From: a virus
Virus record (IMG/VR): IMGVR_UViG_3300048582_000047
Span: 1 to 53,164 of that record
DNA length: 53,164 nt
Direction: 5' to 3' (one strand)
Positions 1,636 through 41,012 of the stretch are shown in pieces (position 1 is the stretch's first letter; every line of letters begins with the position of its first letter). Position numbers and translations under genes: made by a program. A model generated the notes under the pieces. That model ran no database searches, had not been told where the DNA came from, and worked only from the letters and a program-made list of their open reading frames with translations.

Positions 1636-3093
1636 TTAGATGCAAGCCAATTCAGGCGTTATGTCTAGCAATTCCAGGAAATCGGGCAGTCTTTCCGGTT
1701 CCCCTTGGGCGTTAATCTGGTAGTTATCGCGCAGCGTCCTTTCTTTTGTTGTGACAAAGGCAAGATAGGGAGTCGGACTCCTTTCTTCCATCTTAATCCA
1801 TTGCAGAGTCGTTGTCGTTTTCACTTGATAAGCTATGTCAGCCTTTTCTTTAGCCTCAATAGCCTCTTTAAATTCATCGGAGTCTTCGTGATAGTATTCC
1901 CCTTCAAAATAAGTTACGTCACAATGACTCTGGTGATAGTAATCCCCATTGTAATAAACACACTCAGACTCAAGCTGATACTCGCAATCTACATCAAGGA
2001 TATATCCATTTCTGTCCAAGTATCTTTCTGTTGCAATATCACCGTTTCCAGTTGTATAAGCTTCATCCTGTCGGATATATGAGTCCATCAATTCGGAATA
2101 AATATAGTCGTTTGACAAGCAACATTGACAAACACAATTCCCAGAATCCACTTGGGTCAATTCTTCGGAAGTATACCCCTCACAAAACTCGCAATAGTTT
2201 TGTGGTTCAACATAAATAAAGCCTTCAGTTGAACGGCAGCGAATGTTACCGTCGCCTAGTATGAAATAATCCCCAATATCTTCGCAAAATTCGCAATCGT
2301 CCAAGTAGGGCATAAGATACCCTCCGGGGTGGTCAATCTTTCTGATTTTAGCGCCATCAATTCCTTTACTTGTGAATCCTTTTTCTCTAAGGTAATTCAC
2401 AAGTAACTCTGTTGCAGTATCATCCGCTGTATAAATATCAGAAAATCTTTTCTTATCGGGGTATGTAAGGACTCTAGCGCCGATAGTGTCTTTTCCTACC
2501 TGTTTAGCATATACAATTTCAATATCGCCCGCAGCATATACAATTGCCGGATGCTGGGTTGGCTTAGGGAAGTAATACCCTCTCATGCAAGATGAATCCA
2601 GTCTTTTGACGTAGCAATCAAATCCAAAACTGGAAAAGGATGGACTCCTTTTTGGCGTATGTTGTTCCTGATAAGCGAAGCGGAAAGACTCTTCATCCTT
2701 CCCCGTATGCAATTCAAACTCAACAGGTAGGAATTCTGCCTTCAGCTCAGACACACAAGACTCAATTCTGGCATCCGTCATCCAAGGAAAGATTTTCTTG
2801 AGGTATTTACCAGCTTTCATGGTTTGGGGTCGATTGCGATAAATATCAAGAATCGAAGTAAATCCCGTAATCATTCCGTCTTTATAATTTGGACGCAAAG
2901 CGTTACTAAGGGAATCAAAGACCTCAGTTGTAAAATCAGCTAATTCTACGTTATAAGGTCCAAATTGTTTTATATTGTTGTCAATTACGAAGTAGTAAAA
3001 GTCACGGCTAGCCATATAGCAATCCGATTCGGATTTAGAAAACACAAGAGCTTTATTTGCCGCTTTAATATGCTCAGGGATTTGAGACTCCAT
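1636..3093 (-). CDS. SCM-motif phage protein with cysteine-rich C-terminal region
   Basis: A 485-residue protein, the first gene of the leftward accessory arm. Residues about 110-270 are clearly related to the product of 8506-9408: both carry SCMRG/SCMRY, then HPAIVYAAGD/HPSVVYASGD, then an ARV segment, a (S/R)D/NIYTA-like motif and a MPYLD/CPYID motif. This resembles a widespread uncharacterised phage family with SCM...RA...RIY motifs. After that core it adds a cysteine-rich tail with several CxxC pairs (CEFCED, CEFCEG, CVCQCC) and tandem acidic YYNGDYYH/YFEGEYYH repeats, probably zinc-binding. GGAG lies about 9 bases before the ATG at 3093. Function unknown. Confidence 0.8.
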   Translation of the reverse strand: MESQIPEHIKAANKALVFSKSESDCYMASRDFYYFVIDNNIKQFGPYNVELADFTTEVFDSLSNALRPNYKDGMITGFTSILDIYRNRPQTMKAGKYLKKIFPWMTDARIESCVSELKAEFLPVEFELHTGKDEESFRFAYQEQHTPKRSPSFSSFGFDCYVKRLDSSCMRGYYFPKPTQHPAIVYAAGDIEIVYAKQVGKDTIGARVLTYPDKKRFSDIYTADDTATELLVNYLREKGFTSKGIDGAKIRKIDHPGGYLMPYLDDCEFCEDIGDYFILGDGNIRCRSTEGFIYVEPQNYCEFCEGYTSEELTQVDSGNCVCQCCLSNDYIYSELMDSYIRQDEAYTTGNGDIATERYLDRNGYILDVDCEYQLESECVYYNGDYYHQSHCDVTYFEGEYYHEDSDEFKEAIEAKEKADIAYQVKTTTTLQWIKMEERSPTPYLAFVTTKERTLRDNYQINAQGEPERLPDFLELLDITPELACI

Positions 3094-3841
3094 AGCGCCG
3101 ACTCCATGCTAGGGCGATTCGTTACCCATACATAAGGCACACAAGCTGGACACTCTGGCAAGTGTGATAAGTCTGCAACCTTTCCAGGATTTCTACAGAT
3201 CAATCAAGATTCCCTATTGACATTTGCAAGTGCCAGGTTCACGCGCATGTGTGATTCCTTTGGAGTCAGCTTGACGCTGTGTCAGCTAGTGACCCATCAC
3301 GAATTGTTACAGGGCTTGCATGTTCCAGGATTTGCGCTTATATTGATTCGTATGAACCCGGCGTGACCGGGCAGGGGTCGCTTCTCGACTCGCAAAAAAC
3401 AACGAGAATGGGCAAGTGCGAATCAGTCCACTTCGGTCCTAATTTACTGTTTTTCACTTAGTCAACCGATTCTTTATACTGTTTCACTCAAATCACAATC
3501 GGGTGAAGTAACAAAACTTTATACGCCTATGTTTTAGGCGCTAGTAACGCAATGTTACAATAACCAAAACAGTCTGAAATAATGTGACGCTGCATTGCGG
3601 CACAAGACACAATATCTAGTGTGTTATCCTAGCGAATCACATACGAAAAACCCGATTTGCCCGCCAACCTGTCAAGCAGATTTGTTCTGTATCAGAGTGA
3701 CCGAAAGCGCCTAACCGCTTGCTAGGGCCGTTCCAGCTTGTCTAAAGGCCATGTGTCTTAATTATCACACAAATGTTGCTCCAGGGTCACACCTGCTGCG
3801 GTGCGGCATAAAAACGCACGGTCAAAAGCTTTTACAGGCAA
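3094..3841. other. divergent intergenic control region
   Basis: About 990 bases (to 4083) separate the two divergently read arms. I find no supportable gene: the plus ORF at 3279 has no ribosome site. Visible elements include a hairpin CGCCT-ATGTTTT-AGGCG near 3523-3539 without a T tract, and several AT-rich stretches. On the circular map it is the only point from which transcription diverges, so it is the best candidate for early promoters and a replication origin. Confidence 0.6.
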
Positions 3842-3951
3842 TTACCCCACGAGGGAAATGAGCACCCCCACGAGGGAAATGTTCGCCTGCTGCCCCGCGC
3901 TATAGTTACCCCACCGAGGGGAATGAGCAGGGCCATAGGGGAAATGTTCGT
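3842..3951. repeat. iteron-like repeat array, four copies
   Basis: Four copies of a CCACGAGGGAAATG-like motif, with cores starting at 3851, 3872, 3916 and about 3937. Within each pair the cores are 21 bases apart, two helical turns. They alternate in what follows the core: AGCA, TTCG, AGCA, TTCG. So a two-motif unit of about 45 bases has been duplicated. Spacing and conservation fit a protein-binding array (replication iterons or an operator) just upstream of the rightward promoter. Confidence 0.65.
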
Positions 3952-4022
3952 CAAACTGAAACACTATGTTTCCATGTGTGTGATTGTGATAAAATTACAA
4001 CAGTTTCTCTTGTCGATTGTGT

Positions 4023-4051
4023 TTGACGAATCACCTGTGACCGTGTATACA
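4023..4051 (+). promoter_or_regulatory. sigma70-like promoter of rightward arm
   Basis: TTGACG (4023-4028), a spacer of exactly 17 bases, then TATACA (4046-4051). It lies 33 bases before the ATG of the first rightward gene and just downstream of the iteron-like array, so the array may regulate it. No other promoter this good lies in the region. Confidence 0.65.
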
Positions 4052-4083
4052 GAATACAACGAAACGCAAAAGGAATTACGCAA

Positions 4084-4284
4084 ATGCCTAAGTATTCTAA
4101 GCAGACTTACGAAATGGTTGCTGCAAGCATCTACTCTACCTTTCTGTCCGCAGAAAGCTTTGGACACCCAACTACAATCAAACACCTAGAAAACCTATCA
4201 GAAGATTTGTCAAGCAAGTTTGCAGACAATAATCCCAACTTTAAGCGTGATTTGTTTATGAAAGCTTGTGGTTTTATTGGGTAG
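4084..4284 (+). CDS. hypothetical early protein
   Basis: First gene of the rightward arm, 66 residues (MPKYSKQTYEMVAASIYSTF...), predicted mostly helical. AGGA lies 9 bases before the ATG. The pattern of a helix, a loop with HPTTIKHL, and a second helix with DNNPNFKRDLFMKACG is common in small phage proteins of unknown role. As first product of a strong promoter it may act early against the host, but nothing in the sequence says how. Confidence 0.75.
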   Translation: MPKYSKQTYEMVAASIYSTFLSAESFGHPTTIKHLENLSEDLSSKFADNNPNFKRDLFMKACGFIG

Positions 4285-4359
4285 TCAGAAAAAAGACAAA
4301 GCCAAGTTTTTGTAGGAATTTTTGTCAGTTACAACTCGTCAGAAAAAAGTCAAACCAAA
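4283..4359. repeat. pair of short direct repeats
   Basis: GTCAGAAAAAAGACAAAGCC at about 4283 recurs as GTCAGAAAAAAGTCAAACC at about 4338. They fill the 115-base gap between the first two rightward genes. A GGGGTCCCA motif follows at 4361-4369 and recurs at 4616 and 5740. Role unknown; operator or RNA element possible. Confidence 0.5.
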
Positions 4360-4398
4360 AGGGGTCCCATTTCGAGGGACGAGAAAGGGTTTACCACA

Positions 4399-4665
4399 GT
4401 GATCGAACAAACAATCCTGTTGTCTAGTGCATGGAAAGACTGGTTGGAAATCCGTCCACACTTTTCCTTGCGCTTTGGTCAATACTTCATCAATCAACAC
4501 ACGGAAGGATACACTAACGCAAGCGTCTTCTATGAAACTGACCCTGAAAAAGCTTATACAGAACTTCTGTGGGAAATTTGTTCAGGTCAACTCGACGGAA
4601 AACTTGTTGACACGAGGGGTCCCACAGGGTATAGTAGTGAAACGAATCAAACAGGAGGCGCATAA
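4399..4665 (+). CDS. hypothetical protein
   Basis: An 88-residue protein with GTG start at 4399 and AAAGGG about 9 bases upstream. It has several tryptophans and aromatics (SSAWKDWLEIRPHFSLRFGQ) and a helical DPEKAYTELLWEICSG region. The C-terminus looks disordered. No family recognised. It is followed after about 35 bases by the peptidase-like gene. Confidence 0.65.
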   Translation: MIEQTILLSSAWKDWLEIRPHFSLRFGQYFINQHTEGYTNASVFYETDPEKAYTELLWEICSGQLDGKLVDTRGPTGYSSETNQTGGA

Positions 4666-4699
4666 ACGCAAATCCACAAGAAATATAAGGAGAACTAAT

Positions 4700-5695
4700 A
4701 TGGCTGGCCGTAATTACGATCTTGCTGAAATGTTGACTTATAAGCGGCCAGATGGTTCCAAGTATCAGACTAAATTCTGCAATCGCTATCTTCGCCCCGT
4801 TATGGGTGAACCTGACCTTTTTGGTAACTATGTCAAGATCATAGGCCACAAACCTAATGTAGCCTTCATGGCTCACCACGACACAGTTCATAAGGATTCA
4901 GGTAAGCAGATTGTTGTCCGTGAAGGTAATTTCTACAAAGCACACCACACGTCTAACTGCCTAGGTGCTGACTGCACTACTGGCGTCTATATCATTCTCA
5001 AAATGATCGAGGCTAAAGTTCCAGGTGTTTATGTTGTTCACGGTGCAGAAGAAATTGGTTGTATTGGTGCTGCTGGTATGGTTGCATCTAATCCTGACTG
5101 GATTTCTCATGTAGATTTTGCCATCAGCTTTGACCGTAAAGGTTATGACTCAATTATCACTCACCAGTTGAGTGAGCGCACTTGCTCTGAGGATTTTGCA
5201 GACAGTCTTGCAAATATTCTTGACATGGATTACAAAGCAGACGCTAGTGGTGTTTACACTGACTCTAATGAGTATCGTTCTGTTATTGCAGAGTGCACTA
5301 ATCTTTCTGTTGGTTACTTTTGCCAGCACACCAAAGCAGAGACGCAAGACATCAACTTTGTCGAAATGCTGATTGACCAACTTATCAAAGCTGACTGGTC
5401 TTCTCTTGTTGTCGCTCGTGATCCGTCTGTTACTGAGAAAACCTATAGTAGTCGTAACTGGTGGCATGACAAGTGGGATTACGAGGATAACTCCAAATCT
5501 TACTACAGCGGTCCTAAAGAAGTTCACCGTATGATTGATCCAGAACACAAAGATATGGAGGATATGGTAGACCTTATCAAGAACAATCCAGTAGAGATTG
5601 CTAGGTTGCTCAAAGATATTGGTTACGATGCTTACGACCTTGTTGACGAAGTGTATAACTATAAGAGGAATCCTGACGATGAAGCCGGTTTCTGA
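4700..5695 (+). CDS. M20/M28/M42-type zinc peptidase-like protein
   Basis: A 331-residue protein; ATG at 4700 has AAGGAG upstream. It carries the ordered ligand pattern of co-catalytic zinc exopeptidases: HHDTVH (H59/H60, D61), GADCTTG (D91), HGAEEIG (E117/E118, base and ligand), SFDRKG (D145) and CQHTKAE (H210). All metal ligands seem present, so it is probably catalytically active as an aminopeptidase or amidohydrolase. The last 110 residues are acidic and lack a recognised domain. Known families of this fold trim peptides or deacylate small molecules; the substrate here is unknown. It sits among early genes, not virion or lysis genes, so an intracellular role on host peptides or a defence signal is inference. 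Confidence 0.75.
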   Translation: MAGRNYDLAEMLTYKRPDGSKYQTKFCNRYLRPVMGEPDLFGNYVKIIGHKPNVAFMAHHDTVHKDSGKQIVVREGNFYKAHHTSNCLGADCTTGVYIILKMIEAKVPGVYVVHGAEEIGCIGAAGMVASNPDWISHVDFAISFDRKGYDSIITHQLSERTCSEDFADSLANILDMDYKADASGVYTDSNEYRSVIAECTNLSVGYFCQHTKAETQDINFVEMLIDQLIKADWSSLVVARDPSVTEKTYSSRNWWHDKWDYEDNSKSYYSGPKEVHRMIDPEHKDMEDMVDLIKNNPVEIARLLKDIGYDAYDLVDEVYNYKRNPDDEAGF

Positions 5696-6056
5696 AAATT
5701 TTCGTCAGTTCCGAGGGGGGCCTAGCATCTACCGTCAGGGGGGTCCCATGTCGATTCCCCTTGACGAATCACTGATCGACATGCTAGAAGACTGTATCAA
5801 CTCAGGAGAGCAATCGATGTTCAACCCTCTGACTGTAGGCCGCAACAAGTTCACTGTCGAAGTTACCAAGCAAGACGGTAGCTTTGGCACTATTACTGGT
5901 AAACTGTTCGCTGACAACTTTACTGGTTCTGACAACGAAGTCCTGGCTTATACACTTGAACTTCTAGAGAAAGACCTTGTGCCAGTCTATACCGACAAAG
6001 GTTGGCGCTCTTTCTACCAGACTAAAGTTGTGTCGTTCAAATTCGGGGATAACTGA
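5679..6056 (+). CDS. hypothetical protein
   Basis: A 125-residue protein. I chose ATG 5679 (AGAGGA upstream, overlapping the peptidase gene by 17 bases); ATG 5748 is possible. The body has a beta-rich pattern (NPLTVGRNKFTVEVTKQDGSFGTITGKLF) and an acidic helix. The N-terminal 23 codons contain runs of G that include GGGGTCCCA, which argues that they may be leader rather than protein. Function unknown. Confidence 0.65.
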   Translation: MKPVSENFRQFRGGPSIYRQGGPMSIPLDESLIDMLEDCINSGEQSMFNPLTVGRNKFTVEVTKQDGSFGTITGKLFADNFTGSDNEVLAYTLELLEKDLVPVYTDKGWRSFYQTKVVSFKFGDN

Positions 6057-6226
6057 TGTTTCATGATGACTTTCTTATCGGCTTGGTGTTAGGTCTTGTT
6101 GTTGGTATTACAGTAATAGGTATCGTAAGTAATGCTGTGTGGCGGTCTGACTTGGTTACTCGCGGGTTGGCTATCTACTGCCCGCTTGATGGAAACTTTG
6201 CTTTTATTGGAGAATGTGACAAATGA
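6056..6226 (+). CDS. small membrane protein
   Basis: A 56-residue ORF (MFHDDFLIGLVLGLVVGITVIG...) with one membrane segment near residues 8-25 and a C-terminal cytoplasmic or periplasmic part with two cysteines (YCPLDG, GECDK). It overlaps the preceding stop (TGATG) and the next start (ATGA), which fits a real gene in a translationally coupled operon. Function unknown. Confidence 0.65.
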   Translation: MFHDDFLIGLVLGLVVGITVIGIVSNAVWRSDLVTRGLAIYCPLDGNFAFIGECDK

Positions 6227-6417
6227 TCGAAGTAGGTAAAAGCTACAAAACCCTTGAGGGTAATTTCACTTGTATTGCTGTTGATGATGAATTTGCTTAT
6301 ATGCAAAGTGAGAAAGGTCTTACGGCTTATGCTTGGTATCTTGACGGAACTGCTCGCAGCCTTCCTAGTGAATATAACTTGTTTAAGCAAACTGTATTTG
6401 TAGAGGTAGATAAATGA
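6223..6417 (+). CDS. hypothetical protein
   Basis: A 64-residue protein (MIEVGKSYKTLEGNFTCIAV...). The opening resembles small SH3-like beta barrels seen in phage proteins (VGKSYKTLEGN, then alternating strands). It overlaps both neighbours by four bases. No function assigned. Confidence 0.65.
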   Translation: MIEVGKSYKTLEGNFTCIAVDDEFAYMQSEKGLTAYAWYLDGTARSLPSEYNLFKQTVFVEVDK

Positions 6418-6650
6418 CTGTGGATATTACCCTTGAAAACGTGGCGCGGATGGCAAAAAGCCTTCGTGATCCTTTCTGCCACAATGAAGAACTGTGCGAC
6501 GAAGCCGCCGACATGCTGCCTGTGCTGACGGCGCGTCAGATCATCGAACGCCGGTTGGGCCGGTCGCTTGGACCCATTGAAACCATGCCCCGCGACGAGC
6601 GCGACGCGCTGCGGAAGCTGGGGCTGCAACTTGTGAAGGTGAGGGGATGA
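6414..6650 (+). CDS. small protein of GC-rich cassette
   Basis: A 78-residue protein. Its N-terminal ENVARMAKSL resembles ENVARMLDGV at the start of the product of 6886-7368, so the two may share a short N-terminal module. From here to about 7360 the DNA becomes clearly GC-rich with host-like codon use, unlike the AT-rich genes on both sides. The C-terminal half is Arg-rich and helical (ARQIIERRLGRSL). It is probably a recent acquisition from a Rhodobacterales prophage or host genome. Confidence 0.65.
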   Translation: MTVDITLENVARMAKSLRDPFCHNEELCDEAADMLPVLTARQIIERRLGRSLGPIETMPRDERDALRKLGLQLVKVRG

Positions 6651-6889
6651 CTAACTTTCGCTTTAAGCGCGTTATGCGCTACGACGAAATCCAGGGCCAC
6701 TATCGACTTTTCCGCGTAATGTGGGAGACCGGCACTGTGGGAGAAGGCGCTGGACACAGCAATATGGTTTCAGTCGCGTTTCAGCCCACTCTTTTCCAAT
6801 ACAATAGGTTGTCCGCGTTTTCGTGGCGTTTGGTTTTTTGCGGCATCCGCATCCACCGCAAGCGCAGCTTTGTGGGGATTTTTGCATGA
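6647..6889 (+). CDS. prophage-type small protein
   Basis: An 80-residue protein that starts in a four-base overlap. The final third (VSVAFQPTLFQYNRLSAF... ending SFVGIFA) matches the style of short proteins frequent in Rhodobacterales prophages, which usually begin a conserved VSVALRP segment and end GGIFA. Function of that family is unknown. Base composition is intermediate between the cassette and the phage backbone. Confidence 0.6.
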   Translation: MTNFRFKRVMRYDEIQGHYRLFRVMWETGTVGEGAGHSNMVSVAFQPTLFQYNRLSAFSWRLVFCGIRIHRKRSFVGIFA

Positions 6890-7368
6890 CCGACACCAGC
6901 CCCGAGAACGTGGCGCGGATGCTGGACGGCGTCACGCCGGGGCCTTGGAAGTGCTGCGAGACGACTATCCACGGCATCAAGTATGGCGGATGTTGGGTTG
7001 AGGGGCCTGCCGTTGACGAGGGCGATGGGATGCCGCGTGGCCTGCCGATCCCGATTAGCGGCAGCGGCGGGGCAATGTCCTACACCACGCGGCTTGTGGA
7101 CATTCAGGTCCACGACCACACCGACGCCAACGCCCGCTTCATCGCCTACGCCCGAGAAGCCCTGCCAGCCCTCGCCGCAGAGCGTGACGCCCTCGCCGAG
7201 GACGTGTCCACATATCAGCGCATGGTGCTGGACATGACGGCGGAGAATGAAGCCCTTGACGCCAGACTGGCCGAGGTGGAAGCGGAACGGGATTTGTTCC
7301 GTGTCCGCGAAGAACTGCGCGATCTACTTTGGCCGCCCGACACCGCCCTTGAAGGAGACAAGTCATGA
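6886..7368 (+). CDS. Ea22-like prophage protein
   Basis: A 160-residue protein; ATG 6886 has GGGGA upstream. It carries the pattern seen in Ea22-like phage proteins: TPGPW near the start, then NARFIAYAREALPALAAERD, followed by a coiled coil (about residues 100-150). GC content is high throughout. The family is widespread in alphaproteobacterial prophages and often encoded in early regions; its role is unknown. High GC and family both suggest recent transfer from a host-resident prophage. Confidence 0.7.
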   Translation: MTDTSPENVARMLDGVTPGPWKCCETTIHGIKYGGCWVEGPAVDEGDGMPRGLPIPISGSGGAMSYTTRLVDIQVHDHTDANARFIAYAREALPALAAERDALAEDVSTYQRMVLDMTAENEALDARLAEVEAERDLFRVREELRDLLWPPDTALEGDKS

Positions 7369-7607
7369 CCAATATAATTAACCTAAACGATAGACGCCCT
7401 AAACCTCCTGACCCTTGGCGACATGCACAACCTTTTCTTGTTGATAAGGGTGATAGAGAAGAACTTTGGTCACACCCTTACTTTGGCATTAGCCTTATGA
7501 TTTGGGCAACTGGTAGTAATGATGTGCCAGAACCACCAACTACAGGTGGAACACCTAGAGCGGCAAACGTGGCAACTTATCAACGATTGAGGGCTGTAGC
7601 AGCATGA
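7365..7607 (+). CDS. hypothetical protein
   Basis: An 80-residue protein with a good GAAGGAG site before ATG 7365. The N-terminus is rich in Arg/Pro (LNDRRPKPPDPWRHAQPF) and the C-terminus is flexible. Composition returns to the AT-rich phage backbone here, so the right edge of the GC-rich cassette lies just before this gene. Function unknown. Confidence 0.65.
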   Translation: MTNIINLNDRRPKPPDPWRHAQPFLVDKGDREELWSHPYFGISLMIWATGSNDVPEPPTTGGTPRAANVATYQRLRAVAA

Positions 7608-7774
7608 TTCCATATGATCCAGAAGAGGTATTCACTTGCTCTGACTGTGGCAAAGTAGCTAAAGTATACTACCAGTCTAACAACAACCAGGATATTTGTG
7701 TATCCTGTGATACAGAGGATGATTATGACGACAGTTACTACGAAGATGATTCAGATTCACCTTGGAATGAGTAA
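7604..7774 (+). CDS. small zinc-ribbon protein
   Basis: A 56-residue ORF overlapping the previous stop. It has two CxxC pairs (CSDCGK near residue 12 and CVSCDT near residue 32) spaced for one zinc ribbon, followed by a strongly acidic tail of Asp, Glu and Tyr. Such acidic zinc ribbons may act as protein-binding or DNA-mimic modulators, but nothing here decides that. The gene overlaps the next by eight bases in another frame. Confidence 0.65.
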   Translation: MIPYDPEEVFTCSDCGKVAKVYYQSNNNQDICVSCDTEDDYDDSYYEDDSDSPWNE

Positions 7775-7973
7775 AGTTGTTACTGCACTCTTTCTACTGA
7801 CTGCTCTAGCAGCTTGTCAAAGTGAGGAGTCTTGCTACAAGAATGTTGATAGTCGATTGAGTGACAGTGCCATCATTGATGGGGAAGGGCTATTTCTTAC
7901 CTCTATCTACCACAATGAAGACACTAGTGCTTGTGACTTCACTGTTGTTGGTGGAAGACTCTACAAGAAGTGA
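7767..7973 (+). CDS. predicted lipoprotein
   Basis: A 68-residue protein from ATG 7767. It has an N-terminal hydrophobic signal (KVVTALFLLTALAA) with lipobox LAAC at residues about 14-17, so cleavage before the cysteine and lipid attachment are expected. The mature part has three more cysteines (ESCYKN, SACDF). It lies in an early operon, far from the lysis genes, so it is not an Rz1-type spanin. Phage-encoded early lipoproteins such as T5 Llp block superinfection by masking receptors; that role here is inference. Confidence 0.7.
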   Translation: MSKVVTALFLLTALAACQSEESCYKNVDSRLSDSAIIDGEGLFLTSIYHNEDTSACDFTVVGGRLYKK

Positions 7974-8365
7974 TTTTGCCTATACTATAGAACCTAATAC
8001 TATAGGACTACTATAAACTACTAATAGTAAGTAGTAGTTCTATAGAACTTAATACTATAGAGTCTATAGGTAGGATGACTTCTGAGTTTGTCAAGAACCA
8101 CCCATAAAATAAAGTCTATAGTGTGTTGTAAATGTCACAGTAGGGTTGTTGTCTCCTACCTGTCTGTTGTCTATGAAGGGTGAAGCACCCTCTTGTCGCA
8201 GCAGGATGCCCGTAGAGCCGTCAAATAAGCGATTCTAGAGGGGTCTAGTGGTTTCTATAGGGCAAGGTAGCCCACAAGGTTAGATGCGCTGTAGGAGGGG
8301 CTATTGTAGCACTATAAGTTATTGTGTCATATTTAACACACTACAGGGTTATGTTGTAGAGATGC
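7974..8365. other. AT-rich intergenic region with inverted repeats
   Basis: No gene. The first part (about 7980-8065) is a cluster of repeats of CTATAG/ACTATAGA and an AACTACT...AGTAGTT inverted repeat that can fold into nested hairpins. A weak hairpin AGGGTG-AAG-CACCCT (8177-8191) followed by CTTGT may be a poor terminator for the upstream operon. Near 51540-51800 a similar AT-rich stretch with ACTAGTAGTAG motifs occurs. Confidence 0.5.
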
Positions 8366-8393
8366 TTGAAACCCCTCTGTTGTTGCCTATATA
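8366..8393 (+). promoter_or_regulatory. candidate promoter upstream of tRNA and replication genes
   Basis: TTGAAA (8366-8371), a spacer of 16 bases, TATATA (8388-8393). Transcription would start within or just before the tRNA at 8409 and continue into the replication genes. It follows a 390-base gap in an otherwise gapless operon, which supports a second transcription start here. Confidence 0.45.
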
Positions 8394-8408
8394 CGATAAT
8401 CCAGATTA

Positions 8409-8485
8409 CCGGGTGTAGCCTAACTGGTAACGGCAAGAGCCTTAAACCCTCTCAAATGCGAGTTCGAATCTCGCCACCCGGACCA
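8409..8485 (+). tRNA. tRNA, anticodon UAA (reads UUA), short variable loop
   Basis: Seven-pair acceptor CCGGGTG/CACCCGG, D arm GCC/GGC, T stem GCGAG/CTCGC with loop TTCGAAT, A73 and an encoded CCA. The anticodon loop 8441-8447 gives anticodon TAA (8443-8445), reading the Leu codon UUA. Two oddities: the variable loop has only five bases although bacterial Leu tRNAs have a long one, and the last anticodon-stem pair (8440/8448) is C-C. UUA is rare in GC-rich Rhodobacterales but common in AT-rich genes, which would explain carrying it. The amino acid actually charged is uncertain. Confidence 0.75.
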
Positions 8486-8505
8486 AAAACCAACTAGGAG
8501 TGATT

Positions 8506-9408
8506 ATGAGCCATCTTGAGTCTGTAGCAGAGTCCTTTTGGAAAATCTGGCATATGCGTAATGAGGGGCAAGTTCGCCCCATTCTTACCAAACGGGTGAA
8601 CAACAAAAAGATTGTTGACGCTCTGCTTAATGCAGCGGATATGCTCGGTGAGGATAAAGAGGCACTCAAGGTTGTGCTTAAGCTTTGGTTGCCTAAGCCT
8701 GCCACTGATCTTGAGTCTATCAGTTACTTCCCTGACTACAACAAGTATTCCCTTGGGTTAGTGAAGCATCGGACTAAGGTTTATCCAGGGAGGTTCTTCC
8801 TTAAGCTTTTTCCTACCGCACCAAATAATCTTGTGGAAGCTTTTGCATCCTACTACCAGACACAAGTGATCTTTGACCCCTCTGACTACATCATTCATAT
8901 TGGGGATACGAAAGAGGACTTCAAGAACGCTTTCACTCGTTACCACAAGACTAGGGGTAACTTCGACTACAATGAGGCCGCTTCTATTTCTGATAGTTGT
9001 ATGCGCTACGGGTTTCCTGGTCTCTCAGACCACCCCTCTGTAGTTTATGCTTCTGGTGACTTCAAGGTTATCACTGTGCGTAGTAAGTCTGGTAAGACTA
9101 GGGCTAGGGTTGTCTGTGGTTACAAGGGTGGTAAGTATTCCTCTAATCGTATCTATGCCTCTTGCAACCACTCTAAGCAACTTCTTCTGGACAAACTAAA
9201 AGAATTGAAAGATAACGATTTTGATTGGCGTGGTTTGAAGCTTCTTAAGATCAATGCTTTTGATAATCGCACTCCCGCGCAGAAGCAATACCTTTGCCCC
9301 TATATTGACCACTACCGTGAAGTATCGGTGTTTGGGGAAGATCACTTGGTTATTGGTGGGAGGGATACTGCAAGTAATTGGACGGGTGGCTATGTCACAT
9401 TTTACTGA
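8506..9408 (+). CDS. SCM-motif phage protein, short paralogue
   Basis: A 300-residue protein; ATG 8506 has TAGGAG just upstream (a GTG two codons earlier is inside that site). Residues about 160-280 are a paralogue of the product of 1636-3093 (SCMRYG, HPSVVYASGD, RARVV, RIYAS, LCPYID). It lacks the cysteine-rich tail of the other copy and stops shortly after the shared core. It is placed directly before the primase-helicase gene, so it is likely expressed with the replication module. Function unknown. Confidence 0.8.
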   Translation: MSHLESVAESFWKIWHMRNEGQVRPILTKRVNNKKIVDALLNAADMLGEDKEALKVVLKLWLPKPATDLESISYFPDYNKYSLGLVKHRTKVYPGRFFLKLFPTAPNNLVEAFASYYQTQVIFDPSDYIIHIGDTKEDFKNAFTRYHKTRGNFDYNEAASISDSCMRYGFPGLSDHPSVVYASGDFKVITVRSKSGKTRARVVCGYKGGKYSSNRIYASCNHSKQLLLDKLKELKDNDFDWRGLKLLKINAFDNRTPAQKQYLCPYIDHYREVSVFGEDHLVIGGRDTASNWTGGYVTFY

Positions 9409-9418
9409 GGGGTAACTG

Positions 9419-10990
9419 ATGACTGAAATCTCTCATAGACCCTGCCCTTACCCTAGTTGCGGCTCTAGTGATGCTTTTGGGTTTAACTTTGAGAAAGGGG
9501 TTGGCTTCTGCCATTCATGCGGTAGTGGTTACCCCTCTCGCAAACAGACTTACGATTGGGCTGCTGCTAGATATCCCACGGTGAAAAAACAATTCGAGGT
9601 GATTGAAGACGAAATGAAGAAAGAGTTTAGGGACCATCGCGGTATTACTGCTCGGACTATGCAGACTTATGACGTAGAAACTGATGTAGACGAGAACAAC
9701 AAAGAAATCCGTCACGGGTATAAGTATCCCGATGGGAAAGTTAAGTATCGCATCTTCCCGAAGTCCTTTACGGCTGATGTTGGACTTAAGACTAACGTTT
9801 TTTGGGGTATGAACAGGTTCAATGGTGGTAGTGCTAAAGCAGTTACTATTACCGAAGGTGAGCTTGATGCTATGTCAGCTTACCAAATGCTCGGTTCTAA
9901 GTATCCGGTTGTATCACTTCCTAGCGCAAACCCCTCACGGACTATCTTGGAGAGTTGCTTTGATTGGTTGAATAGCTTTGAAAAGATTTATCTCTCTGTT
10001 GACACTGACGACAAAGCAGAGGGATTTGCTCTCAATCTTATGAACCTGTTCCCCGGCAGGGTCTACAAGGTAAATCACGACAAGTTTAAGGATGCTAACG
10101 AGTTTCTGCAAGCTGGCGCTGCACAAGCATACACTAACGCTTGGTGGAACGCTAAGTTGTTTACTCCGTCAAGCATCTTGTCTGACGCCTCTGATTTTTT
10201 GTCGCTTTACGAGGATACCCCTGAGCACAACTATGTTCCTACCGGGATTCCAGAACTAGATGCTAAAATCCTTGGACTTATGCAGGGACACTTCACTGTG
10301 TTGTTGGCTGAGACAGGGATTGGTAAAACGGAGCTTATGAGGTATCTGCAATATAACTTCATCAAGAACTACCCTGACGTTAAGTTTGCTTCTTGGCACC
10401 TTGAAGAAACCCCGCTGCGTTCTCTCCTTGGTCTTGTATCTTATGACCTTGGTGACAACCTTACTCGTAAGGATTTGGTGGAAAGCAAGGGAAAAGTTCA
10501 AGAGGTTAAGGACTCCATCAAGAGGATCACAGACAACGGAAACTACCTGCAATTTAGTCTGAAAGAGTCGGACAGTATCGAGGCACTAACTGAGCAGATC
10601 AGGTTCTTGTCGGAAGCTTGCGGTTGCAAATACATCTTCTTTGAACCTATCCAAGACGTTCTATCTATTTCGGACGAGAAAGAAAAGGAAAGTAAACTTG
10701 CTTCCTTGAGTATTCAGTTGTCCAAGATGGCTTCTAAGCTTAACGTGGGTATTGTTACTATTGCTCACACTAACGAGAATGGAGACCCCAAGTATTGTCG
10801 TATGATATCCCAGAGGGCTTCTGTTCGTATTGTGTTGTCTAGAAACAAAGATGCAGACTCCCTTTTGGAGAAGAATACCACCCACCTCAAGGTGACAAAA
10901 AACAGACCCTGTGGTCTAGAAGGTGACGCGGGGGCCTTGACATTTGACGGTGCAACCTTTACATTGACTCCACGTGAACAAGGATTCTGA
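9419..10990 (+). CDS. T7 gp4-type DNA primase-helicase
   Basis: A 523-residue protein. A zinc motif (C9, C14, C31, C34) recalls primase zinc domains; a Toprim domain follows (TITEGELDAMSAYQ near residues 140-155, then SVDTDD). The C-terminal RecA/DnaB-type helicase has Walker A AETGIGKTE near residue 297 and a CKYIFFEPI Walker B-like segment. So it probably makes primers and unwinds the fork in cis, like T7 gp4. It starts ten bases after the preceding stop with GAGGGG upstream. The spacer between Zn and Toprim is short compared with cellular primases, as in T7. Confidence 0.9.
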   Translation: MTEISHRPCPYPSCGSSDAFGFNFEKGVGFCHSCGSGYPSRKQTYDWAAARYPTVKKQFEVIEDEMKKEFRDHRGITARTMQTYDVETDVDENNKEIRHGYKYPDGKVKYRIFPKSFTADVGLKTNVFWGMNRFNGGSAKAVTITEGELDAMSAYQMLGSKYPVVSLPSANPSRTILESCFDWLNSFEKIYLSVDTDDKAEGFALNLMNLFPGRVYKVNHDKFKDANEFLQAGAAQAYTNAWWNAKLFTPSSILSDASDFLSLYEDTPEHNYVPTGIPELDAKILGLMQGHFTVLLAETGIGKTELMRYLQYNFIKNYPDVKFASWHLEETPLRSLLGLVSYDLGDNLTRKDLVESKGKVQEVKDSIKRITDNGNYLQFSLKESDSIEALTEQIRFLSEACGCKYIFFEPIQDVLSISDEKEKESKLASLSIQLSKMASKLNVGIVTIAHTNENGDPKYCRMISQRASVRIVLSRNKDADSLLEKNTTHLKVTKNRPCGLEGDAGALTFDGATFTLTPREQGF

Positions 10991-21141: not shown

Positions 21142-21268
21142 TTGGCTTTATGAAGCTTCTTTATCGAAAGAGGAAAGGTTAGAGGGTTACTTTGGGGAGA
21201 TTAAAGAGTTACCCAAGAACCCTGATCATTGGCTAGGGACTAAATCACTAGAGGGTTACAATGGGTAA
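21122..21268 (+). CDS. possible small protein
   Basis: A 48-residue ORF with GTG start (MEKRLLSWLYEASLSKEERL...), charged and helical, ending in an overlap with the HNH gene start. The amino-acid pattern looks protein-like, but there is no clear ribosome site. With the preceding ORF it accounts for the gap 21003-21260. Confidence 0.4.
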   Translation: MEKRLLSWLYEASLSKEERLEGYFGEIKELPKNPDHWLGTKSLEGYNG

Positions 21269-21743
21269 GCGAGAAGAGACTAAGAAAGACCGTCATCCGC
21301 TAACTAAACACGGTCACAGAAAATCTAACAACGGTAAGCCGACAGTAGAATATCAGATTTGGTCGGGTATCCTCAAAAGGTGTAGAAACCTCAAGTGCAA
21401 TATCTACCAATACTACGGGGGTCGGGGTATTACTTTTGACCCTCGTTGGACAGAGTTCCAAAACTTTTTAGACGATGTTGGTTTCAAACCTACGGATAAA
21501 GATGGATTGGACCGTATAAACAACTCTCTAGGTTACTACAAAGAAAATGTTAAATGGGCCACTCAAGCTGAGCAAAACAGAAACAAAAGCAATAACATTT
21601 ATCTAGACGGCGTGTGTTTAAAAGATTGGTGTATGTCAAAGGGATTTAACTACAAAACTGTTTGGCGTTGGTTTGTTCTTGAAGGTAAGACAAAAGAGTA
21701 TCTACTAGAGAGGGGCGAAGTGCTATGGGGAAAAGGGAACTAG
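21261..21743 (+). CDS. HNH homing-type endonuclease
   Basis: A 160-residue protein with the arrangement of phage HNH homing enzymes: YYGGRGITFDPRWTEFQNFL, then GLDRINNSLGYYKENVKWAT and EQNRNKSNN. The final 45 residues (LDGVCLKDWCMSKGFNYKTV...) look like a small DNA-binding helix-turn-helix. It stands free between genes, so it is probably a selfish mobile gene that cuts related phages at this locus. It overlaps the methylase start by 19 bases. Confidence 0.85.
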   Translation: MGKREETKKDRHPLTKHGHRKSNNGKPTVEYQIWSGILKRCRNLKCNIYQYYGGRGITFDPRWTEFQNFLDDVGFKPTDKDGLDRINNSLGYYKENVKWATQAEQNRNKSNNIYLDGVCLKDWCMSKGFNYKTVWRWFVLEGKTKEYLLERGEVLWGKGN

Positions 21744-39787: not shown

Positions 39788-40315
39788 CTAAATTGGGTAT
39801 CTGTTGTTTTTTGATACGTTTAAGTCACCGGGTAACACTTGTAAGTTCCACGGGACATGGAGTCCACAAACGTTCTTTCCTCGTAAGGGGACAATGTGGT
39901 CTACGTGGTAAACCTCCCCCGTAACAGCCTTTAAATCTGCGCAAAGCCAATAAAAGTTCTCTATAAGCTTTAGATGCTCTTCTGTAAGCCATCTCGGGGT
40001 TGCTTTTAGTTTTTGCGATCTACGTGAAGCCTCTCTACAAGCTTTTTTATGTTTGTAGTTTTTAGTATCTTTATCCTCAGCGTAACTGTTTTTAGCGGTG
40101 TTAAGCCTATATAGCCTAAAACTCTCGTCACTTTTATAGCGAGCATTTTCGTAAGACTTAACCCTTTCTTTGTTACGTAAAGACCAAAGTTTTTTATATT
40201 CCCTATTACAAGAGATACATCTAGAGCTAAGTTTACCTTTTACGAGGTAAAAACAATTAGCCCCTTTTTGTTCTTTGCATAGGGAACAGTGTCTAGAGAC
40301 CACCACGTTAATCAA
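39788..40315 (-). CDS. HNH endonuclease inserted in the head module
   Basis: About 175 residues; the frame is open from 40348 but the first codons lie inside the scaffold gene, so the start is uncertain (TTG 40315 or GTG 40306). Two zinc-like pairs (CSLCKE and CISCNR) come first, then the HNH core VYHVDHIVPLRG, HVPWNLQVLP and NVSKNN. It is between cement and scaffold genes, where free-standing homing nucleases often sit. Base composition is more AT-rich than its neighbours. Confidence 0.75.
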   Translation of the reverse strand: MINVVVSRHCSLCKEQKGANCFYLVKGKLSSRCISCNREYKKLWSLRNKERVKSYENARYKSDESFRLYRLNTAKNSYAEDKDTKNYKHKKACREASRRSQKLKATPRWLTEEHLKLIENFYWLCADLKAVTGEVYHVDHIVPLRGKNVCGLHVPWNLQVLPGDLNVSKNNRYPI

Positions 40316-40316
40316 A

Positions 40317-41012
40317 CTACTTTTTGTAGGTTTTGTTGATGAGGGCAAGACCTTCTTTAGTCTTGGCTACCTCTGCATAAGCTTGTTGGTAGGTAACTTT
40401 GTGGGTTTCTTGGAAAGTTTTAACCAACTCGTCAAGCTTGCCCGATGCGTCCTTAAGTTCTTCGGTAGCGTCAGTCTTACCTTTCTCTGTGAGAAGCATT
40501 GCAAACAGAGCATCGGCAGCAATGAGCATTTCCAGGAGTTCGGCGTCGTCACCAATCGACTTAAGCAGTTTACCACGTTGGTCAGCACTACCCTTAAAAT
40601 TAGGAAGCTTTTCATCAGCGCGTTTACGGAGTTCTTCGGCTTCTTTAGCCTTTTCCAACTCTTCTAGTTGTTTGAGGACTGGTGCGGGGATAGCTGACTT
40701 AGCAACCTTTTCACCGTCAAAGTCCATCATTTCTTCTTTTGGCCTCGACTTTTCAATCTCAGCAGCTTCAAACTCTTCCACCTTAGCTTTAAGCGTTTCC
40801 ACTTCGGCAGCAACAGTCTCAAGTTCTACAATCTTGGTTTTCAGCGTTTCAACTTCTTGAGCAGCGTCGGCAAGTTGTTTTTCCATTTGTTCCTTAGTCT
40901 CATCGGACATTTCGGAATTTCCTTTTCGTTTAAGTAAAGTGACCTTTGCGAGAGGATCGTCCCCCGCGTCTACGAGAGAAACCTCAAAAAGATCAAGTTG
41001 AGTGAGTTCCAT
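40317..41012 (-). CDS. scaffold-like protein with C-terminal part of XkdF-like protease
   Basis: A 231-residue protein. The first residues MELTQLDLFEVSLVDAGDDP are the usual C-terminal strand of XkdF-type prohead proteases (l..l.EvSLVd), followed by a Glu/Lys-rich coiled coil (about residues 35-100) and helices typical of scaffolds. It starts in the stop of the protease gene (TAATG). So the protease end and scaffold are one polypeptide here, separated from the protease core. Confidence 0.75.
   Translation of the reverse strand: MELTQLDLFEVSLVDAGDDPLAKVTLLKRKGNSEMSDETKEQMEKQLADAAQEVETLKTKIVELETVAAEVETLKAKVEEFEAAEIEKSRPKEEMMDFDGEKVAKSAIPAPVLKQLEELEKAKEAEELRKRADEKLPNFKGSADQRGKLLKSIGDDAELLEMLIAADALFAMLLTEKGKTDATEELKDASGKLDELVKTFQETHKVTYQQAYAEVAKTKEGLALINKTYKK

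Follow-up and report, generated by a model that had tools for sequence, protein, structure and literature searches.

The locus described here raises the question of what a compact protein with a co-catalytic metal site does in the early region of a phage genome. The gene lies in the window, by which we mean the whole 53,164-nt stretch analyzed (positions 1 to 53,164 of IMG/VR record IMGVR_UViG_3300048582_000047). We favor, at a probability of about 0.6, an active two-metal clan MH exopeptidase of PHROG 4191 that works early and in the cytoplasm, in one pathway with a partner protein termed "SCMR". The enzyme is most likely an aminopeptidase or tripeptidase-like, and we infer that its specificity is that of an aminopeptidase, not of a carboxypeptidase or deacylase. 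The strongest functional clue is a conserved partner gene, which an earlier note on this DNA had missed.

Gene, Product, and Genome Context

The open reading frame and all five motif contexts described in the earlier note are present in the translation of 4700-5695. A Shine-Dalgarno-like AAGGAG lies directly 5' of the ATG, and a promoter candidate is located further upstream.

4700..5695, plus strand: peptidase gene, 331 aa; ATG at 4700, stop codon at 5693-5695
4607..4635, plus strand: sigma-70-like promoter candidate, TTGACA-17-TATAGT, 65 bp before the start codon

The promoter candidate is the best match (11/12) within 2900-9500, and occurs at the equivalent place in locus L002 while being absent there in L003. 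Its -35 and -10 are overlapped by the C-terminal part, conserved in L002, of a small ORF that precedes the peptidase gene (4399-4665, 88 aa, initiated by GTG). Because the -35 falls inside this ORF, conservation of the promoter may reflect coding sequence, and we regard the promoter as suggestive. By position, the earlier note was right to assign the gene to the early region, apart from capsid and lysis genes: it precedes the primase-helicase gene at 9419, and early expression is probable. The window also encodes a T7-like primase-helicase and DNA polymerase, a ribonucleotide reductase, and, on the strand opposite the T7-like replication genes, siphophage-type genes for head and tail. Two ORFs that, by eye, resemble HNH-type or homing endonucleases are inserted in the head-gene (39788-40348) and nucleotide-metabolism (21261-21743) regions.

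The protein comprises a catalytic domain (approximately residues 8-240), a low-confidence linker (249-283), and a helical C-terminal tail. The PHROG profile phrog_4191, annotated "peptidase", matches residues 8-261 with E 3.3e-74 and most of the model covered. Pfam M28 (PF04389) falls just below its curated cut-off (E 4e-4, 20.6 vs 21.3 bits), which the homologue from phage KpV41 clears at 22.7 bits. M20 (PF01546, E 0.05) and M42 (PF05343, E 0.04, 13.5 vs 23.2 bits) are also below cut-off. With no Pfam family cut-off passed outright, the protein is best called a compact clan MH exopeptidase, unclassified. PADLOC defence models returned just a 25-residue partial DpdK match for the peptidase (E 0.0017) and none for the partner or its paralogue.

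Predicted Metal Site

The earlier note had proposed a co-catalytic zinc exopeptidase site beginning at H60. Its other members, D91, E117/E118, D145, and H210, are borne out by alignment, while the first ligand moves by one residue to H59.

4874..4882, plus strand: HxD motif, H59-H60-D61; H59 predicted metal ligand, D61 predicted orienting residue, both invariant
4970..4972, plus strand: D91, predicted bridging metal ligand (LGADC); invariant, aligned with LGADD of peptidase T
5048..5053, plus strand: E117, predicted general base, and E118, predicted metal ligand; both invariant
5132..5134, plus strand: D145, predicted metal ligand (SFDRKG); invariant, aligned with the Asp of leucyl aminopeptidase 6esl
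5327..5329, plus strand: H210, predicted metal ligand (QHTKAE); invariant, aligned with IHTTNE of peptidase T

All seven residues (H59, D61, D91, E117, E118, D145, and H210) are invariant among 44 non-redundant close relatives. The same holds for 15 highly divergent phage homologues with 20-48% identity. The invariance thus extends over podophages and siphophages, phages of Thermus and Brevibacillus, a crAss-like phage, and the 630-735-kb phages. Position 60, in contrast, is occupied by H, L, I, M, or T among aligned relatives, and profile alignment to peptidase T (3gb0) sets H59-H60-D61 opposite H-M-D. H60 is thereby ruled out as a metal ligand, with the invariant H59 pairing with the His of peptidase T. 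The clan MH ligand order (H, D, E-E, D/E, H) is complete in the window peptidase. Since the invariance of seven residues across 44 and 15 homologues exceeds chance, we consider the predicted metal site real and the gene product probably an active zinc peptidase.

The open-access literature searched yielded no functional study and no activity, metal-binding, or expression data for any family member, which would suit a catalytically dead clan MH protein that acts as a binding scaffold. A scaffold would not need the metal ligands and general base, however, and all of these are invariant at 20% identity, making this explanation extremely improbable.

Comparison with Solved Enzymes

The AF2 model has a mean pLDDT of 86.5, with most catalytic-domain blocks at 92-98. 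Together with its Foldseek matches, it displays the phosphorylase/hydrolase-like α/β fold of clan MH. The earlier note had looked to M20, M28, and M42 for structural kin, and against the PDB the model is indeed nearest to peptidase T (3gb0, E 1e-9), M42 aminopeptidases, and M28 aminopeptidases. A profile built from the diverse family retrieved PepT-like 3gb0 (E 7e-22), tripeptidase SAV1512 (E 2e-20), and TET1 (E 2e-11) from the PDB; such family profiles were needed, as a single-sequence phmmer search of the PDB with the window peptidase gave no match.

Each of the three groups resembles the window peptidase in part. Peptidase T-like enzymes and tripeptidases (MEROPS M20B; 3gb0, 3rza) provide the best profile and fold matches and have the HxD, LGAD, EE, and GYxxxHT motifs in common with it, but the M20 dimerisation domain is missing: E118 and H210 are separated by 92 residues, compared with about 200 in the aligned 3gb0. 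M28 enzymes, such as the Vibrio proteolyticus aminopeptidase (1amp), are likewise compact and single-domain with an identical ligand order, in which D145 corresponds to the M28 Asp ligand; they are secreted, whereas the window peptidase is encoded in a phage early region. The M42 (TET) aminopeptidases match in fold and ligands, yet the inserted domain that separates the first His from the bridging Asp in these enzymes is absent from the window peptidase (H59-D91, 32 residues).

Clan MH contains many non-peptidases, and deacetylases, glutaminyl cyclase, and carboxypeptidase G2 are among the Foldseek matches. The protein might accordingly be a deacylase, aminoacylase, or other non-peptidase hydrolase of this fold (cf. 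aminoacylases, DapE, glutaminyl cyclase) with a small metabolite or a defence signal as its substrate, and an acyl writer/eraser pair would make sense if the partner were GNAT-like. The best profile matches are nevertheless peptidases (PepT, tripeptidase, TET, PepD), and residues 145-210 are too short for the M20 dimerisation domain that most clan deacylases carry. We therefore view a non-peptidase activity as doubtful and retain the exopeptidase assignment.

A Common Phage Family

The earlier note described such enzymes as rare in phages and implied an undescribed family. Neither description holds. The PHROG 4191 peptidase was found by tblastn in 367-397 GenBank phage records (Klebsiella, Pectobacterium, Vibrio, Thermus, and others), and one pattern scan of IMG/VR gave 188 loci with relatives, so that rarity among phages is ruled out. 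Among 84,980 bacterial and archaeal species genomes, a pattern scan detected the family in four; two of these matches are short MAG contigs, and one is a chromosomal copy near an integrase. The contrast between roughly 400 GenBank phages plus 188 IMG/VR loci and 4 of 84,980 cellular genomes marks this as a phage family, and a common one.

The family is also already in print as a conserved early "putative peptidase". In PhiM1-like phages, it is the sole one of six conserved early ORFs with a predicted function (PMC6115819), and the "putative peptidase" KP34p11 has been counted as core, adjoining the hypothetical KP34p10 (PMC4411677). KP34p11, PhiM1_10, VP93 gp7, and KpV41 gp11 belong to PHROG 4191, as does the window peptidase, which is about 32-38% identical to them; they also have in common with it an early position before the primase and an upstream partner. 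The partner is directly upstream of the peptidase in these four phages but divergent in the window, and the siphophage-type head and tail genes of the window genome set it apart from them. Taken alone, the window gene adds a further member to a phage peptidase family that is known but lacks functional characterization.

A Conserved Partner Gene

Two genes in the window encode homologues of the partner protein.

1636..3093, minus strand: partner protein, 485 aa; homologues lie beside the peptidase in most non-redundant loci
8500..9408, plus strand: shorter partner paralogue, 302 aa, with the core but without the zinc-ribbon tail; identified by blastp and HMM matches

The paralogue adjoins the primase-helicase gene and has a homologue at the equivalent place in both L002 and L003. 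A partner homologue adjoins the peptidase at 41 out of 50 non-redundant loci. Of the nine others, six have less than 1 kb of upstream sequence, and one of the remaining three, Thermus phage TSP4, turned out to have adjacent partners as well, which brings the proportion to 42 of 44 where flanking sequence suffices. This pairing, unreported in the open-access literature searched, extends across podophages and siphophages to a Thermus phage and, separately, to a crAss-like phage (phi40:1), in which peptidase and partner are 31 bp apart. Small-phage partners align with those from megaphages, Thermus phages, and crAss-like phages by hhalign at a probability of 99 (E 5e-18); used as the sole query, the window partner retrieved no IMG/VR relatives by pattern.

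The arrangement of the pair varies, with the partner upstream and overlapping, downstream, or divergent. In TSP4, the peptidase is flanked on either side by divergent partners, and one of these ends 3 bp before the peptidase. Two tandem pairs occur in L006 (1535-5906), and two pairs about 2 kb apart are present in a Mesorhizobium genome (L099, 4625-11374), indicating that the pair duplicates as a unit. In the last two loci with room, the partner is encoded elsewhere in the genome (Thermus P23-45_stolb1) or was not detected (Brevibacillus SecTim467), suggesting that an adjacent partner is dispensable for the peptidase to work. Although adjacency could partly stem from shared ancestry of early regions, its presence in most phages argues that the two proteins probably cooperate early in infection.

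The largest genomes show a looser association. Four uncultured phages of 630-735 kb (LR756501, LR756502, LR745206, and LR756504) each encode 4-8 peptidases and 7-19 partner proteins, for a total of 22 peptidases and 48 partner genes that are mostly unlinked. Strong linkage was expected inside these genomes, but just 4 of the 22 peptidases lie within 1 kb of a partner against 1.4 expected, a marginal excess (p about 0.05). Judging from the megaphage and small-genome counts, co-occurrence is general and tight linkage is mainly a property of small genomes. The 735-kb phage contains a partner cluster and two peptidases side by side.

These distributions bear on two further explanations. The partner could be the substrate or regulated component, with the peptidase trimming it or its Cys-rich tail, so that the pair forms a self-processing host-takeover factor. 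Tight pairing in a changing gene order and the duplication of complete pairs are in keeping with this idea, as are partner N-termini and tails that vary around a conserved core. However, those clan MH enzymes whose function is known are exopeptidases and a poor fit to a single maturation cut, the megaphage copies are unequal in number and mostly unlinked, and P23-45 and SecTim467 have no adjacent partner; we judge this unlikely. Less probable still is a nutritional role, in which a general aminopeptidase would convert peptides of degraded host protein to amino acids for phage synthesis. Its nearest solved relatives are cytoplasmic tripeptidases, but hosts already possess many such enzymes, the gene is positioned early and upstream of replication, and bulk recycling would not call for a dedicated conserved partner.

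Nature of the Partner

Alignment of the partners reveals a core with an invariant S-C-M, Arg, Tyr, and Pro-Tyr-x-Asp, suggesting that the partner is an enzyme, followed by a Cys-rich, zinc-ribbon-like C-terminal region. Searches of Pfam and PHROG assigned the window partner to no family; its relatives in Pasto and KpV41 belong by profile to phrog_6980, for which no function is annotated. An AF2 model (pLDDT 82) gave no significant match in a fold search of the PDB (best E 0.07), with 37 of the best 50 matches being GNAT-fold by description. FemX, Leu/Phe-tRNA-protein transferase, and ATE1, which we take to be GNAT-fold proteins, are among the matches. Comparison of the partner with GNAT/FemAB by hhalign gave less than 1% probability, and the positive control (GNAT vs FemAB) failed as well, which makes this a blunt test. 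The predicted partner fold is only weakly GNAT-like, and we treat GNAT as a lead.

Two other comparisons were set aside. Kinship with PcfJ (PF14284), suspected from layout and a weak viral fold match, found no support when profiles were compared. Rac, an acetyltransferase of phiKMV that sets off cleavage of RNA polymerase alpha, might appear analogous to a partner-peptidase pair; we claim no link, since Phikmvvirus genomes have no predicted protease (PMC7552054).

A Proposed Two-Protein Pathway

For the favored pathway, in which exopeptidase and partner act together, we envisage the following order of events. The peptidase would be made early in infection and remain in the cytoplasm. The partner (1636-3093, minus strand, or its paralogue at 8500-9408), whose invariant S-C-M, Arg, Tyr, and Pro-Tyr-x-Asp look active-site-like, would modify or present a polypeptide N-terminus or a small aminoacyl or peptidyl compound, and the peptidase would then remove the terminal residue from this target. 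The module is shared among very different phages and hosts, so its target is probably common to most bacteria; in the proposed scheme it would be one found in many.

A more specific version can be offered tentatively, with the odds against it. The pair may constitute a two-component system that is so far undescribed and widespread among tailed phages, crAss-like and 630-735-kb phages included. Its two enzymes, a PepT-like aminopeptidase of reduced form and a partner that is possibly GNAT-like and would add an acyl or aminoacyl group, would together rewrite polypeptide N-termini of the host or the phage at an early stage of infection. The missing M20 dimerisation or lid domain may also have its place taken by the partner. 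The conserved pairing converts a vague "putative peptidase" into a testable two-gene module, present in the laboratory-accessible phages KP34, VP93, and PhiM1 as well as in one phage of Thermus and one of Cellulophaga.

Some megaphage peptidases carry long additional C-terminal regions, in frames of up to 868 aa. One peptidase has a DnaJ-type CxxCxGxG repeat region (below the Pfam cut-off), and a 51-aa stretch in the tail of one resembles the tail of an adjacent partner (E 6e-5). The DnaJ-type region and the common tail segment fit a polypeptide target and shared recognition.
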